A stretch of DNA of 64,000 bases, taken from assembly GCA_016178705.1 (NCBI GenBank), contig JACOST010000030.1:1-64000 (forward strand), written 5' to 3'. The translations under genes were made by a program, and so were the position numbers. The notes beneath the pieces were generated by a model. That model ran no database searches, was not told the DNA's origin, and saw nothing but the letters and a program-made list of their open reading frames with translations. The DNA comes from Deltaproteobacteria bacterium. Its GTDB lineage: Bacteria > Desulfobacterota > Binatia > HRBIN30 > JACQVA1. Shown here piece after piece: positions 700 to 10,919 of this stretch (the first letter of the stretch is position 1; each line of letters opens with the position of its first letter).

Positions 700-887
700 T
701 GACCCGACGCGGTCGCTCGGTATGTAGTGCCGTCATGCAACTCGTGGCGCGCGCGGTGCCTCTCCCCGCCGGATCGGGCTTCACCTGACACAGCCCGATC
801 GATCGCGTGCCGTATCGTCGCTAACTCCGCGCAACATGAACCGACAACACCCACGGGCGCGGACCCGTGGCAGGGGAGTGTAGTGCA

Positions 888-2057
888 ATGCCTCACATCT
901 ACGGTCTCGATGAGACCGCCAGCGAATTCGCATCGGCAGCCAGTCGCATTGCCGCGGACGTGGCCGCCTCGCACGCGGCGGAAGTCGACGCGCAGGCGAT
1001 TTTTCCCGCCGTGAGCATCACCGCGCTCGCCGAGCGTGGCTTCTTTGGCCTGTGCGTTGCGCCGGACTTTGGCGGCAAAGGGCAGGGGCCGCGCACCTTT
1101 GCCGCCGTGGTCGAAGAGCTCGCCGGCGCGTGCGCCTCAACCGCGATGATCTACGTGATGCACGTCACCGCCGCGCAAGCGATCGCGTCGTCGAGTACGT
1201 TGTCGTATCGCGACGACGTGCTGCGACAAATCGCCGCGGGTCGTCACCTCACGACGCTTGCGCTGTCGGAGAAGGGCTCGCGGTCACAGTTCTGGGCGCC
1301 GGTATCGCAACTCGTCGAGCAGAACGGCGGCTATGTCACCAGCGCGGCGAAGTCGTGGGTGACCGCGGCCGGGCGCGCCGACTCGTATGTAGCCAGCGCG
1401 CAGCGACCAGGCGCGGCCTCACCGCTCGAGTCGACGATCTATTTCGTGCGTCGCGGTGCGCCCGGAGTACGCGTGAGCGCGGGATTCGACGGGCTCGGGT
1501 TGCGCGGCAACGACTCGGCGCCCATCACCATCGACAACCTGCGCCTGGTCGCCGGCGATCTGGTGAGCGCGATGGGCGAAGGCGCAAAGACCATGCTCGA
1601 AGTCATCCTGCCGTGGTTCGCGATCGGCACTGCGGCGATGGCCAGCGGCCTGTGCCGCGCGGCGCTCGCCGCCACTAGCGCGCACTTGGTGGGCCAGGGC
1701 TTCGAGCACAGCGGCAGTCGCTTGCGCGATTTGCCGAATCTGCGCGCCAGGCTAGCGCAGATGAGCGTGCGCACCGAGCAGGTGCGGGCGCTGCTCGGCT
1801 ACACGTTGGGCGAAATGGAGCGGCCCTCGGCGACCACACCGCTGTATGTATTGCAGACGCGGCTAGCATCGCTCGAGGCCGCCATCGACGTCACCGACGC
1901 CGCGATGAAGGCGTGCGGCGGCGCCGCGTTCTCGAAGCACTTGCCGATCGAACGCCTGTTCCGCGACGCCCGTGCCGGATGGGTAATGGCGCCGACCGTC
2001 GATCATCTGCACGATTTCATCGGCCGAGCGTTGACGGGAATGGAGTTGTTCGGGTGA
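888..2057 (+). CDS. Acyl-CoA-dehydrogenase-family flavoprotein lacking the usual catalytic Glu
   Basis: A 389-residue protein with full acyl-CoA dehydrogenase architecture: N-terminal helical domain (GFFGLCVAPDFGGKGQG), central beta domain (LALSEKGSRS, with KSWVTAAGRADSYV) and C-terminal four-helix bundle (CGGAAFSKHLPIERLFRDAR). Classical enzymes carry a catalytic Glu in an IYEGT-type motif just after RDAR. Here that stretch reads VMAPTVDHLHDFIGR, so the Glu position is Ala. The start is ATG 888; the longer frame would need a GTG at 867. It is followed after about 120 bp by a PhnD-like gene and then a diiron fusion gene on the same strand. It may be a dehydrogenase using another base, or a flavin monooxygenase of the same fold; the sequence does not decide. 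Confidence 0.85.
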   Translation: MPHIYGLDETASEFASAASRIAADVAASHAAEVDAQAIFPAVSITALAERGFFGLCVAPDFGGKGQGPRTFAAVVEELAGACASTAMIYVMHVTAAQAIASSSTLSYRDDVLRQIAAGRHLTTLALSEKGSRSQFWAPVSQLVEQNGGYVTSAAKSWVTAAGRADSYVASAQRPGAASPLESTIYFVRRGAPGVRVSAGFDGLGLRGNDSAPITIDNLRLVAGDLVSAMGEGAKTMLEVILPWFAIGTAAMASGLCRAALAATSAHLVGQGFEHSGSRLRDLPNLRARLAQMSVRTEQVRALLGYTLGEMERPSATTPLYVLQTRLASLEAAIDVTDAAMKACGGAAFSKHLPIERLFRDARAGWVMAPTVDHLHDFIGRALTGMELFG

Positions 2058-2176: not shown

Positions 2177-2986
2177 ATGCCAGATTCAACCATTCTACTC
2201 GGCGCGGTTGCCTACGATCCGAAGGTCGTGACGATCTGGGAAGGCATTCGCGGACACTTCCAGGAGCAGGGCGTGGCGATGGATTTCGCGCTGTTCTCCA
2301 ACTACGAGCGCCAGGTGGCGTCGCTGCTGGCGGGACACATCGACGTAGCGTGGAACACACCGCTGGCGCACGTGCAGGTGCAGCGCCGCACGCACGGCCG
2401 TTCGTGCGCGCTCGGCATGCGCGACAGTGATCGCGACTTCCACGCCAAGGTGGTGGTGCGCAAGGACGCCGGCATCAGGTCGCTTGCCGATCTCGCCGGC
2501 AAGACACTCGCCGTCGGCAGCCGCGACTCCACGCAGGCGCGCATGCTGCCGCTGCACTTCTTGAAGGAAGACGGCGTCGATCTCGCGCGCGTAAAAATCC
2601 TCGCGTTTGATACCGACGTCGGCAAGCATGGCGACACCGGCCGCAGCGAGCTCGACGTGCTGGCCGCGCTCAACGACGGGCGCGCGCACGCCGGCACGGT
2701 CGGCGACTACATCTGGATCGTCGAGCAAGCGGCCGGTCGCGTCGATCCGGCGAAGCTCGAAGTGTTGTGGACCACGCCCGGCTTTGATCACTGCATGTTC
2801 GACGCGCATCCGAACATCGCGAGCGAAAAACTCGACGCGTTCAAACGTGCGCTGTTTGCGATGCAGTGGGAGAACCCGGCGCACCGCCGGTTGATGGAGT
2901 TGGAAGGTTTACGAAAGTGGATGCCGCCGCGGGAAGAAGGCTACGACAGCCTGCGCGCCGCGCTTGACGATCAGGGCGGGTGGTGA
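2177..2986 (+). CDS. PhnD-like periplasmic-binding-fold protein without signal peptide
   Basis: A 269-residue protein resembling the phosphate/phosphonate-binding PhnD family, which are type II periplasmic-binding-fold proteins. Family features include LLGAVAYDPKVVTIWEGI at the N-terminus, GHIDVAWNTPLAH, the hinge segment SLADLAGKTLAVGSRDSTQA and AGTVGDYIWIVEQ. It has no signal peptide or lipobox, since the fold begins within a few residues of the start, so it is predicted cytosolic. No ABC permease or ATPase is adjacent. An AGAGGAG ribosome site precedes ATG 2177. Its neighbours are an acyl-CoA-dehydrogenase-fold protein and a diiron fusion protein, so it may be a sensor or carrier for their substrate. 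The ligand is unknown. Confidence 0.8.
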   Translation: MPDSTILLGAVAYDPKVVTIWEGIRGHFQEQGVAMDFALFSNYERQVASLLAGHIDVAWNTPLAHVQVQRRTHGRSCALGMRDSDRDFHAKVVVRKDAGIRSLADLAGKTLAVGSRDSTQARMLPLHFLKEDGVDLARVKILAFDTDVGKHGDTGRSELDVLAALNDGRAHAGTVGDYIWIVEQAAGRVDPAKLEVLWTTPGFDHCMFDAHPNIASEKLDAFKRALFAMQWENPAHRRLMELEGLRKWMPPREEGYDSLRAALDDQGGW

Positions 2987-3166: not shown

Positions 3167-4426
3167 ATGGAGACTTCTGCAATCCCACTAGCCTCGATCG
3201 CCATCGACGGCGGCGACCTACCGCTCGGCGGAGGATTGCTGGCGCTCGTGCGTCCTGCCCTCGACCGATTCGATCCGGGCGGCGTGCTGGCGGTGCTGTC
3301 GTCGTCGCGCGCAGTGCGCGAGGATCTGCCGTCGTGGTGTCGCGTCGAGAGGCATGAGTATCTCGGTTGCGAAGCTACAACCGATGGCCGTGATCGACAT
3401 TTGATCCAACGAGGGACGCATGGTGTCGCCGCCGGCGACCGCGAGCACGGCATCACGCTGCCGCAACGCGATGGCCGCCTGACCGCGGCGGACATGCTCG
3501 CCGCGGTACCGATGCCGCCGCACTCGCAGCCGACGAGTGGTTTCGCCCCGCGTGGCGCAGTGGTCGAACCGGGTGGGCCGGCGTATCCCTTCACGCTGCT
3601 CGAACGCGACCACGTCGCGCCGCCCGAAGTCGCGATGCTGTACGACCAAGCCGTTGCCGCGCAGTGGGACGCAACCCGCGACATCCCGTGGCACACCGTG
3701 CGTCCGCTGCCCGACGCGCTGGAAGCGGCCGTCGGCCAGGTGATGACGTTCCTCGCCGAGAACGAATTGGCGGCCCTCTACGTCCCGGCGAACTTCCTGC
3801 CGCGCATTCATCCGGCGTATGTCGAAGTGGCGATGTTCTTGGCGAGCCAGCTCGCCGACGAAGCGCGACACATCGACGTGTTCCTCAAGCGCGCGCGGGC
3901 CGGCGGTGGCGGTGTGGGAATGTCATCCGCGACGACTTCGCGGTCGTTGCACTCGCTGCTGACGCTCACCGACTTCAGCGGAGCGGCGTTCTTGCTCTCG
4001 GTGTTGGGCGAAGGAACGTTTCTCGACTTGCTGCGTTTTGTCGAAGAGCACGCACCCGACGACGCCACCGCAGAGCTGACGCGCCGCGCGCGCACCGACG
4101 AAGCTCGCCACGTCCACTTCGGCATCGCGCATGTGAGTCACGGGCTTGCGCACGATCCAACGTTGGCGGCGCGTCTCGAGGCCGCGGTGCGCCGCCGCGC
4201 CGCGACGTTGCACGACGCCGGCGGCGCGCCCGCCCCATTGATCGATGCGCTAACGATTCTCGCCGCGCGCGGCACCGACCCGCGCGCCATCGCGCGCGGT
4301 CACGAAGCCGTGCGCGAGTTACTCCACACCATGCACGAAGCCCGCACCCGGCGTTTGCAGAGCGCCGGCTTCACGGCAGAGCAAGCCGAGATTCTCTCCG
4401 AGTTGCACACGCCGAATTTCATGTGA
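3167..4426 (+). CDS. TusA-like domain fused to a diiron ferritin-like protein
   Basis: A 419-residue two-domain protein. Residues about 10-70 resemble TusA, including LVRPALDRFDPGGVLAVLSS and REDLPSWCRVERHEYLG, but the TusA active motif CPxP reads DLPLG, so the sulfur-carrying Cys is missing. After a linker, residues about 140-410 form a ferritin-like four-helix bundle with likely iron ligands E198 or E200, E232 and H235 (DEARHIDVF), E282 (GEGTF), and E312 and H315 (DEARHVHFG). Such bundles are oxidases or oxygenases. It follows the acyl-CoA-dehydrogenase-like and PhnD-like genes, and a three-gene oxidative pathway is inferred. The ATG at 3167 is used. Domain calls are by eye; the linker region (70-140) is unassigned. 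Confidence 0.75.
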   Translation: METSAIPLASIAIDGGDLPLGGGLLALVRPALDRFDPGGVLAVLSSSRAVREDLPSWCRVERHEYLGCEATTDGRDRHLIQRGTHGVAAGDREHGITLPQRDGRLTAADMLAAVPMPPHSQPTSGFAPRGAVVEPGGPAYPFTLLERDHVAPPEVAMLYDQAVAAQWDATRDIPWHTVRPLPDALEAAVGQVMTFLAENELAALYVPANFLPRIHPAYVEVAMFLASQLADEARHIDVFLKRARAGGGGVGMSSATTSRSLHSLLTLTDFSGAAFLLSVLGEGTFLDLLRFVEEHAPDDATAELTRRARTDEARHVHFGIAHVSHGLAHDPTLAARLEAAVRRRAATLHDAGGAPAPLIDALTILAARGTDPRAIARGHEAVRELLHTMHEARTRRLQSAGFTAEQAEILSELHTPNFM

Positions 4427-4584: not shown

Positions 4585-6528
4585 TCACGCGTGCGCCCGG
4601 CCGCTTTCGCCGTATGAGCGAGGCCCAGCCAGTAGACTTTGGACAGCCACTTCAAGTGCTGCCCACGTCGGGTCGCGACTGTCGAGCGCGTTGACTTCGG
4701 CAGTAGGCGCCTTATCGCTCCGAAGTGCGTGGCTGGACTGGTTGCGGCGCCAGCGCGCAACGAGCGCCAGCACGGCCGGCAGGAGCAACGTCCACGGCCG
4801 GTCGCCACCGCCGCCCGTCTGACACCCGCCCGCAGCGTTCAGCGATGCCCCCGTGCTCGCTTCGCTGGTGTTCGGGATGCGAGAAGGCGGCACGACGATC
4901 GCTCCATCGGCGCCCATCGCTTTCAGTCTCTGTCCAAACTGATCTGAAGCCACGACGTTGGAGATGCGCAACGGGTACGTCCCGGCAGCGAGGTCGTCCG
5001 CAATTTTCACGTTGCAGGTGTAGAGGAGGGACCCGTCTGGAATCGGCGCGGCGTCGTCGAACGAGAACACCAGAATGCGAACGCTCGTACAATCCACTCC
5101 CGGGGTACATGTCGCGGGGACGAACGCGAATGCGGTGCCGGAGAGGCCGAGGTGCGCGTTCGGCTGGCAATCAGGCCGTCCGCCGGGATTAGCTGCGATC
5201 GATGCGCCGGCGCTGAACGTTAGGTCGTTCTGTGTGCCCGCGACGTCATTGCCAGCGTTTGTCAACGTCACCCCGACGCTCCGCGTCGCTCCCGGCGTCA
5301 CGGTAGCCGATCCAACCGCCAAGCAGATCGTGTTTGGCTCACACTCAGTTGTGGACGAGGGCACTGACGCGATCGCGATACGGCTCGGCCAGCAGTCAAC
5401 TGCGGAATCGCAGAGCGGGATGTTGCTGGTGATTGTATTGGTGGCCGTGTCGATGACGGCGAGCGACTGGCTGGCGCGGTTGGCCACGTAGGCGGAGCGA
5501 CCTTCCGGCGTGATCGCGATGCCCTCCGGAAAGCTGCCGTCGGGCAGAGTGATCGTCGCCGCAAGTGTTGCGGTTGCGGCATCGATCACAGCAACCCTAT
5601 CGGTGCCCACGTCCGGCCAGGTGAGGGTGACGTAGACGGAGCGACCGTCAGGCGTGACAGCAATGCCCGCTGGAAAGTCCGGCGCTGGTAGCGTCACGGT
5701 GGCCCTCACCGTGTTGGTTGCCGTGCTGATGATCGAGAGGCTTGCGCTGCAGCCCGAAGAGAAAGCGCACGAATAGCCAACGATGCTCGTCGCATACGCG
5801 AACGCCCCGTCCGGGCTCAGCGCAATCTCGCCCGGTCCGACGCCGCCGATGGTGGCCGCGAGTTGCTCGGTGGTCGTATCGAGCACGTACACTTCGCCGC
5901 CTGACAGATGGTCACAGTGATACTTGCAGGCCGGTACGTACGCACTGCGACCGTCAGACGTGATGGCAATCGCGTACGGCTCGTCGGCCACCGGGATGCT
6001 CGCGACGATGGTGTCGGTGGCCGTCTCCATGACCGAGACGACGTGGTGCTCCGGCCACCCCTCGTACCACGAGCTTGCCAAATACACGAAACGAGCGTCG
6101 GGGGTGATGGCCGCCCGCTTGGCTGCCCCGACGAAGGCCTCGTTGACGAAGGTGTTCGACCGGCCGTCGAGAAGCGACAACGCGCTGAGTTGGAGCACGT
6201 ACCCGAAGCGACCGCTGGGAGTAAACACAATGTCGTCGACACGCCACCAATCCTGCGGGATCGAGGCGACGACTGTGTTGGTGGCAACGTCGACGACCCG
6301 GATTTGGCCCTTCTGGCCATCCCGATTGTCGGCGACGTACGCGAACGGATTTGCCGACGCGGTTCGGCAGAGGCCGTGCAATGTTATCGAGAAGATTGCG
6401 GCCACGACAGCGGTTCGCGGCAAAGCGGGCAGCCAGATTGCTCGGCGCAGCACGCTGTTGAAGCTCTCATCCCGCTGCAGGCAAAGCAAGAAAAAAAACG
6501 CCTCACTCGGTAGTCCGTTACATTCCAT
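4585..6528 (-). CDS. YVTN beta-propeller surface protein with cohesin-like domain and C-terminal sorting-type tail
   Basis: A 647-residue exported protein. It has an N-terminal signal segment (AVVAAIFSITLHGLC, ending near TASANP). About seven YVTN-type propeller repeats follow (VVDVATNTVVASI, VMETATDTIVASI, VIDTATNTITSNI, each preceded by TPDGRSVYV-like strands). A Cys-rich, cohesin-like beta domain covers about 400-560 (VTPGATRSVGVTLTNAG). Near the C-terminus GGCQTGGGGDRPW is followed by a hydrophobic stretch and RWRR, resembling the Cys-plus-helix-plus-Arg tails (MYXO-CTERM type) processed by sorting proteases. Unusually, some 50 residues follow that tail. The ATG at 6528 overlaps the upstream stop (TGATG); a TTG at 6531 is possible. 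Likely a surface or adhesive protein. Confidence 0.8.
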   Translation of the reverse strand: MECNGLPSEAFFFLLCLQRDESFNSVLRRAIWLPALPRTAVVAAIFSITLHGLCRTASANPFAYVADNRDGQKGQIRVVDVATNTVVASIPQDWWRVDDIVFTPSGRFGYVLQLSALSLLDGRSNTFVNEAFVGAAKRAAITPDARFVYLASSWYEGWPEHHVVSVMETATDTIVASIPVADEPYAIAITSDGRSAYVPACKYHCDHLSGGEVYVLDTTTEQLAATIGGVGPGEIALSPDGAFAYATSIVGYSCAFSSGCSASLSIISTATNTVRATVTLPAPDFPAGIAVTPDGRSVYVTLTWPDVGTDRVAVIDAATATLAATITLPDGSFPEGIAITPEGRSAYVANRASQSLAVIDTATNTITSNIPLCDSAVDCWPSRIAIASVPSSTTECEPNTICLAVGSATVTPGATRSVGVTLTNAGNDVAGTQNDLTFSAGASIAANPGGRPDCQPNAHLGLSGTAFAFVPATCTPGVDCTSVRILVFSFDDAAPIPDGSLLYTCNVKIADDLAAGTYPLRISNVVASDQFGQRLKAMGADGAIVVPPSRIPNTSEASTGASLNAAGGCQTGGGGDRPWTLLLPAVLALVARWRRNQSSHALRSDKAPTAEVNALDSRDPTWAALEVAVQSLLAGPRSYGESGRAHA

Positions 6529-6860
6529 CAATAGAAGTCGTAGCGGTATCGATTCAGCTCGAAGTAGCGACAGAGGTGTCGGAGGACTTCCTCACGATCG
6601 GTTTGTGGCGGCATGTCGGTACCGACCTCGCGCACGGAGTCTCGATCGACAACGAAATCGAACGGACCAGTTACCATCATCTCGGTGAAGACAACATATC
6701 GACGCGATCCAACTCTTACTTCATGTTGGTCGCGCCCGCGTCGCCGAACCATTGTACCTTCAGCCACACGTGAGAATGAATGGAACAATCGCCAGAGTCT
6801 GTCCTTCCAGAGCATCGCTATCGAGCTGCTAACCGCCACGGTCGCCCGCAAGGCATTCAC
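6528..6860 (-). CDS. Small hypothetical protein (110 aa) in an overlapping chain
   Basis: An unrecognised ORF that starts at a GTG overlapping the stop of the SnoaL gene (GTGA) and ends overlapping the start of the YVTN propeller gene (TGATG). The C-terminal half (RRYVVFTEMMVTGPFDFVVD, then DREEVLRHLCRYFELNRYRY) has ordinary protein composition with alternating hydrophobics. There is no signal peptide or known motif. A later start at the internal ATG (MLWKDRLW) is possible. The double overlap argues for a real, translationally coupled gene, but it could be chance. Confidence 0.45.
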   Translation of the reverse strand: MNALRATVAVSSSIAMLWKDRLWRLFHSFSRVAEGTMVRRRGRDQHEVRVGSRRYVVFTEMMVTGPFDFVVDRDSVREVGTDMPPQTDREEVLRHLCRYFELNRYRYDFY

Positions 6861-10103: not shown

Positions 10104-10919
10104 ATGGATTTGTCACTCGCCGGCAAGGTGGCGTTGGTCACCGGCGCAGCGCGCGGAATCGGCCGCGCCATCGCGCTGGAGTTGGCGCACGCGGGTGCCG
10201 CGGTCGCCGTTGGCGATGTGCGCCTCGCGAAATATCAGGGCGAGCGCTACTACCGATTGTCACGCCGAGTGTCGGGTGCGGATGAAGACGTGCCGACGGT
10301 CGACGCGATCATTCAAGCTGGTAGCCGTGCCGTCGGGATCGAGTTCGATGTCGCCGATAGCGCGCAGGTACGCGACGCGGTCACGCGAGCGACTCAAGAG
10401 TTGGGGCCGATCGACATTCTCGTCAACAACGCCGGCATCGTGAACAACCTCGCCTCGGTCGCCGTGATGGCGCGCGACGCGTGGGATCGCGAGTTGGCGG
10501 TGAATCTCAGCGGCCAGTTCGCGTGCATTCAAACATGCGTGCCGGGGATGGCGGAGCGCGGGTGGGGGCGCATCATCAATATGTCCTCAGTGGCGGCCGA
10601 GCAGCCGCTGCCACTGCAGCCGGCGTACGCGGCGAGCAAGGCCGGCGTGATTGCGCTGACGAAAACCGTGGCGAAGGAGTACGCCGCGCGCGGCGTGACG
10701 TGCAATGCTGTGCTGCCCGGGCTCATCGCCACGCCGCTGGTGCTGTCGATGCCGGAGCCAGCCCGCGCCGCGGTGGTGCGACAAGTCCCGGCGCAGCGGC
10801 TCGGGCAGCCCAGCGAGATCGCCGCTGTCGTCGTGTTCCTCGCCTCGCGCGCAGCGGCCTTTGTGAACGGTGTGGCGATTCCGGTCGATGGTGGATTGTT
10901 GCTGGGGCCGATGTCGTAG
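10104..10919 (+). CDS. SDR-family NAD(P)-dependent oxidoreductase
   Basis: A 271-residue short-chain dehydrogenase. It has TGAARGIGRA for nucleotide binding, VGDVRL at the end of beta-2, NNAGIV, the catalytic Ser in NMSSVAAEQ and YAASK for Tyr/Lys, then CNAVLPGLIATPL and a final VDGGLLL. An insertion near residues 45-65 (RYYRLSRRVSGADEDVPT) lengthens the usual loop after beta-2. It lies 4 bp downstream of another SDR, so both probably serve one pathway. Substrate unknown. Confidence 0.9.
   Translation: MDLSLAGKVALVTGAARGIGRAIALELAHAGAAVAVGDVRLAKYQGERYYRLSRRVSGADEDVPTVDAIIQAGSRAVGIEFDVADSAQVRDAVTRATQELGPIDILVNNAGIVNNLASVAVMARDAWDRELAVNLSGQFACIQTCVPGMAERGWGRIINMSSVAAEQPLPLQPAYAASKAGVIALTKTVAKEYAARGVTCNAVLPGLIATPLVLSMPEPARAAVVRQVPAQRLGQPSEIAAVVVFLASRAAAFVNGVAIPVDGGLLLGPMS

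Follow-up and report, generated by a model that had tools for sequence, protein, structure and literature searches.

The gene at positions 3167 to 4426 of the window (the whole stretch of DNA that was analysed, 64,000 nucleotides from a Deltaproteobacteria bacterium) encodes the third component of a three-gene cassette whose link to selenium is strong, as judged by genome co-occurrence and gene neighbourhood. Its product joins a TusA-like domain devoid of the carrier cysteine to a ferritin-like bundle of diiron type, and we propose, with about an even chance of being right, that it is the diiron component of a cassette that would supply selenium to SelD when oxygen is present. The original prediction, made from the sequence alone, was supported in part: the fold, the missing cysteine and the attached diiron-type protein all stood, and what it had missed was the selenium-tied three-gene cassette. 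The features referred to below are as follows.

867 to 2057, plus strand: acyl-CoA-dehydrogenase-like flavoprotein, first gene of the cassette, with Ala or Gly at the catalytic-base position (57 of 57 proteins)
2177 to 2986, plus strand: PhnD/PtxB-like substrate-binding protein, second gene, with an invariant D204-H205-C206 and no signal peptide
3167 to 4426, plus strand: TusA-like/ferritin-like diiron fusion protein of 419 amino acids, third gene
3197 to 3415, plus strand: TusA-like domain, residues 11 to 83, with Leu20 at the carrier Cys site (Pfam, alignment, model and profile-profile comparison)
3710 to 4423, plus strand: ferritin-like bundle, residues about 182 to 419 (alignment, model and structural matches)

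The fusion open reading frame reads from ATG to stop over 419 codons. Taken as a single sequence, the window protein gives only a suggestive TusA assignment, since the Pfam TusA model (PF01206) matched residues 29 to 81 with an E value of 6e-5 and 23.2 bits, under the curated cut-off of 28.6, and the TusA chains of the PDB matched with an E value of 0.016. The assignment becomes firm at the profile level once relatives are added. Thus, 16 of 18 N-terminal domains of the family matched the TusA profile at E values up to 0.01 (the best being 9.4e-9), and a profile-profile comparison of the family N-terminus with ten ordinary TusA sequences gave a probability of 98.4% and an E value of 7.9e-15 over 70 columns. 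In that comparison the carrier Cys of ordinary TusA aligned with Leu20 of the DLPLG motif, where the loss of the cysteine had been predicted. The order of secondary-structure elements in TusA is beta-alpha-beta-alpha-beta-beta, and residues 11 to 81 of the predicted model of the fusion protein (mean pLDDT of 91.1) followed this same order. The fusion claim depended on an N-terminus that folds like TusA, and on this point the model and the profile-profile comparison were in agreement. In Foldseek and VIA-align, matches to the ferritin part took up the whole of the lists, which bear on that part only.

The C-terminal part contains the two expected DEARH motifs (residues 231 to 235 and 311 to 315) and was modelled as a ferritin-like bundle. 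Alignment, model and structural matches place it in the four-helix dimetal type, with two ExxH pairs and further Glu ligands. Its best structural matches were VlmB (Z of 22.3), R2lox (Z of about 21) and aldehyde-deformylating oxygenase (Z of about 20); named ferritin-like family models matched it weakly, below cut-off, with several families lying within about 2 Z units. The named matches in BFVD (E values up to 0.001) were ribonucleotide reductases.

The fusion protein is a member of a conserved family encoded in a conserved operon, and no lone oddity. When a genome collection was searched with a three-sequence alignment (the window protein plus two of its relatives), at least 279 relatives were detected among 595 candidate stretches, and the best 80 of these were kept as loci; their record titles include Actinomycetota, Pseudomonadota, Planctomycetota, Acidobacteriota, Myxococcota and Chloroflexota. 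After exclusion of 14 loci with uncertain starts or truncation, the window protein and the proteins of the 66 remaining loci were aligned (67 members). The carrier site was occupied by Phe in 38 members, Leu in 28 and Ile in one, and Cys was present in none. G23, W57 and H63 of the TusA domain were invariant in all 67, as were E198, E200, E232, H235, E282, E312 and H315 of the C-terminal part, of which E200, E232/H235, E282 and E312/H315 are the predicted metal ligands, the fold making it probable that a metal is held there. Given these invariant residues and the best alignment with VlmB, R2lox and aldehyde-deformylating oxygenase, the enzyme part of the fusion looks active. Viral contigs yielded no relative with a single-protein query, which reaches close relatives only. 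Ferritin-like relatives with no TusA match (L011 to L037), common in the class of the window genome and occurring as adjacent pairs in several genomes, were set aside.

Since no carrier Cys is present, persulfide transfer by the TusA-like domain appears unlikely, and the invariance of G23, W57 and H63 while the cysteine is missing indicates that the domain has probably been retained for some purpose other than carrying persulfide; docking or binding would be consistent with these observations. It could be argued that the domain still moves sulfur or selenium through a second cysteine, C58, present in 59 of the 67 members. However, the other eight carry Ala or Ser at this site, which varies in ordinary TusA also (WA in 7 of 24 sequences), and we consider such a transfer hardly credible.

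The cassette begins with the flavoprotein gene, continues with the gene for the PhnD-like binder and ends with the fusion gene. In the window the three genes are separated by gaps of 119 and 180 bp, with no overlap; among 59 loci in which both junctions could be measured, 4-bp overlaps were found 22 times at one junction and 21 times at the other. Among the best 80 of the at least 279 relatives, the PhnD-like gene was on the same strand and ended within 1.3 kb of the fusion start in 77 loci (two of the three exceptions lie where a contig ends), and the flavoprotein gene started within 3.3 kb upstream of the fusion in 66. Two neighbours in the window fall outside the cassette: a PNPOx gene at 107 to 562, which had no match at an E value of 1e-6 in the 80 loci, and, adjoining the cassette on the opposite strand (4588 to 6531, minus strand), a gene for a 648-amino-acid protein with matches of beta-propeller type (Lactonase).

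The nearest NCBIfam models were Rv1679 (FadE16) for the flavoprotein and Rv1680 for the PhnD-like protein, both below cut-off. At the position of the Glu of the YEGT motif, which we take to be the catalytic base of acyl-CoA dehydrogenases, the flavoprotein has Ala in 53 and Gly in 4 of 57 sequences, this site opposite the YEGT Glu being the only one compared. Such a replacement in all 57 suggests that the flavoprotein would be an oxygenase rather than a dehydrogenase. It also bears on a reading in which the three genes form an ordinary operon for fatty-acid or sulfonate oxidation and the TusA piece is a decayed remnant. The FadE16 match and the weak score of the sulfonate-binding SsuA model on the PhnD-like protein are in its favor, but neither the loss of the base Glu nor the invariant G23, W57 and H63, which speak against decay, is in agreement with it, and it leaves the association with selenium unexplained. 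We regard it as very improbable.

The model of the PhnD-like protein (pLDDT of 96) showed a type II periplasmic-binding fold and matched binders of phosphite, phosphonate and arsenic. In the window its first possible start is at 2177 and the first strand of the model begins at residue 6, so that there is no room for a signal peptide; strand-first N-termini were likewise seen in the 11 displayed of the 55 PhnD-like proteins. D204, H205 and C206 were invariant in all 55. Selenocysteine at the Cys206 position was considered and rejected, since the tblastn matches from the 80 loci contained no in-frame TGA at that codon. Against TIGR04553, named for a putative selenate ABC transporter binding protein (a hypothetical function name), the window protein scored 97 bits, below the cut-off of 250. 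A separate PhnD-like protein that exceeds this cut-off is encoded beside SelD and close to the cassette in one locus (L190:1419-2432, minus strand). With crude gene calling, no conserved cluster of transporter genes accompanied the cassette apart from an ABC ATPase (6 of the 80 loci).

The link with selenium was evident in the gene content of the genomes. The genomes compared comprised the four cassette genomes of the order to which the window belongs and those of the first 50 of the 80 loci (54 in total). SelD exceeded its curated cut-off in 53 of them and SelA also in 53; the misses fell in different genomes (G445 and G454), so both were found in 52. Among 14 control genomes, SelD was over the cut-off in two and SelA in one.

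Comparisons within lineages pointed in the same direction. The family of Hydrogenophaga flava (299 genomes) contained SelA in 77 and a fusion match in 13. SelA was present in all 13 fusion genomes versus 64 of the 286 without the fusion (Fisher P of 1e-8, ignoring kinship), and it lay within 5 kb of the cassette in five of the 13. Two of the fusion matches were partial (G705, residues 77 to 401; G970, residues 162 to 355); leaving out these two, the centre genome and one genome of the alignment, SelA accompanied the fusion in nine of nine (P of 2e-6, ignoring kinship). In Streptomyces (199 genomes, with SelD in 39 and a fusion match in nine), SelD was found in seven of the nine fusion genomes versus 32 of the 190 others (P of 2e-4, ignoring kinship), or in six of eight when the centre genome was left out (P of 7e-4). 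SelD and the cassette are no more than 15 kb apart in five of the seven SelD-bearing fusion genomes. The two Streptomyces fusion genomes lacking SelD have only partial matches: in G682 the match is cut by a contig end, and G555 (L184) retains fragments of the fusion (residues 40 to 401), the PhnD-like protein (88 to 276) and the flavoprotein (335 to 398) and has no SelD match at 1e-60; here cassette and SelD seem to have decayed together.

In the window's own order, SelA was present in four of four cassette genomes and in 6 of 11 without the cassette (P of 0.23, ignoring kinship); one match there, in G011, is partial and at a contig end. In genus g4, SelA is present in the three genomes with the cassette and missing from the single genome without it. 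The cassette was missing from 32 of the 39 SelD-bearing Streptomyces and from 64 of the 77 SelA-bearing genomes of the Hydrogenophaga flava family. Being missing from most selenium users, it is accessory.

Queries for selenium genes and formate dehydrogenase matched nothing in the window itself (64 kb). SelA is encoded elsewhere on this contig, at a distance of about 460 kb, and the SelD gene of this genome (G000:C14:751984-752913, L186) contains one in-frame TGA; accordingly, the window genome probably decodes selenocysteine, and its SelD is probably itself a selenoprotein.

Selenium genes were also found beside the cassette. When the neighbours in the fetched flanks of the 80 loci (up to 8 kb per side, less at contig ends; the best 80 of at least 279 relatives) were clustered, SelA, SelB, SelD, formate dehydrogenase, SenA and SenB emerged. 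Matches to SelA, SelB, SelD, SenA or SenB were located in the flanks of 19 loci (P of about 6e-21, assuming a chance rate of 1% per locus), or in 21 when the formate dehydrogenase alpha subunit was added; the other 61 had no SelA, SelB, SelD, SenA or SenB match within the fetched flanks. Representatives of selA, selB, selD, SenA, SenB and the formate dehydrogenase beta subunit exceeded their NCBIfam cut-offs, and the pieces of the alpha subunit were under theirs. In four loci (L128, L157, L190 and L191) the cassette is placed between selA and selB. Thus, selA, flavoprotein, PhnD-like protein, fusion and selB follow one another on one strand in L191, L190 repeats this order, and L128 and L157 have selA upstream and selB downstream of the cassette. 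The selB match of L191 begins at 10344, and a stop in that frame at 10353 to 10355 places the start of the gene after this point.

The alpha-subunit matches, which flank 13 of the 80 loci and include in L122 a gene split by an in-frame TGA, could be taken to mean that the cassette directly serves formate dehydrogenase or another selenocysteine enzyme, as a factor that matures or protects it under oxygen. However, in five loci the neighbours are SenA/SenB and the fetched flanks contain no formate dehydrogenase (one of the five, L110, also lacks both partner genes), which makes selenium, and not formate, the shared factor; in addition, SelA and SelD go together with the cassette in different phyla. 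We therefore consider a direct service to such enzymes decidedly improbable.

The main rival explanation is a biosynthetic one, in which the ligand of the PhnD-like protein would be selenophosphate, a compound similar to a phosphonate, and a selenium metabolite would be built or tailored by the flavoprotein together with the diiron enzyme. The presence of SelD over cut-off in 53 of the 54 cassette genomes is in concordance with it, as are the PhnD/PtxB fold, shared with phosphonate and phosphite binders, and the nearest structure to the diiron part, VlmB, which is an azoxy synthase; the making of a product from selenophosphate fits the same facts as a supply function. Nevertheless, the position between selA and selB in four loci and the location beside two different selenium sinks suit supply better than a separate product, and, once the genes for selenium use and formate dehydrogenase and an antisense shadow frame are set aside, the remaining neighbour clusters occurred in at most 7 of the 80 loci (with crude gene calling). 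On balance, we judge a biosynthetic cassette rather unlikely.

The chemistry that we infer for selenium supply is the following. Two probable O2-using enzymes, a cytosolic anion binder and two selenium sinks together suggest supply from oxidised or organic selenium. As an accessory module, the cassette would provide selenium for selenophosphate synthesis by SelD when O2 is present. The PhnD-like protein would hold a small selenium anion or an alkyl-selenium acid in the cytosol, its invariant Cys being perhaps involved, and the flavoprotein and the diiron enzyme would use O2 either to oxidise the selenium compound or to cleave its C-Se bond. The Cys-less TusA domain would carry no chalcogen and would dock the diiron enzyme onto the PhnD-like protein, SelD or a cysteine desulfurase. 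The complete pathway, with capture by the PhnD-like protein, O2-dependent release for SelD by the flavoprotein and the diiron enzyme, and a docking domain that decides the destination of the selenium, is put forward tentatively, as a reading that may well prove wrong. If true, such an O2-dependent selenium pathway would be undescribed. To our knowledge, how bacteria living with oxygen acquire selenium and steer it to SelD is poorly known, and a cassette that tracks selenium use across phyla, with two probable O2-using enzymes and a cytosolic binder, makes the question of selenium supply testable. The fusion family is, in addition, a clear example from nature in which a sulfur-carrier fold has persisted although its carrier residue was lost.

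Compared with known systems, the N-terminus of the fusion shares fold and profile with TusA/SirA (PF01206), but the family lacks the carrier Cys throughout and is fused to a ferritin-like diiron domain. The bundle has in common with VlmB azoxy synthase, R2lox and aldehyde-deformylating oxygenase the ferritin-like dimetal fold and the carboxylate and His ligands, whereas its identity to them is only 12 to 21%; these three enzymes, as far as we know, have no TusA domain and occur in other gene contexts. Similar TusA domains fused to MetE-like (L039 to L044 and L057) or OsmC-like proteins (L038 and L058) were found through their match to the window N-terminus. In contrast to the present family, the nine domains examined keep the Cys, in GGDLDCGxGLL and similar motifs, and have other partner domains. 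Pfam verified L041 (MetE) and L038 (OsmC), the remaining ones being judged by eye; the L041 gene lies near genes that we presume to resemble MetY and MetX. The cassette PhnD-like protein resembles PhnD/PtxB, the arsenic binders AioX/ArrX and TIGR04553 in fold and in weak profile matches, and differs from them in having no room for a signal peptide and in its invariant D-H-C (55 of 55).

No paper on TusA with ferritin, on selenium with such a gene content, or on Rv1679/Rv1680 was found in the open-access literature, and the cassette is undescribed in the literature searched. The selenium accessory genes named in the available parts of Lin et al. 2015 (PMC5322559) and of a 2022 review (PMC9312934) are YedE, YedF, DUF3343 and a LysR-like gene, and those same parts are silent on acyl-CoA dehydrogenase, ferritin and phosphonate. 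As described in the available part of PMC5322559, the YedF/YedE/DUF3343 system resembles the cassette in having a TusA-like (SirA-like) domain and a tie to selenium through genome context. YedF, however, combines its SirA-like domain with a DsrE-like one and keeps the CPxP and CGxC motifs, whereas the fusion protein joins a Cys-less TusA domain to a diiron bundle and belongs to a different gene set.
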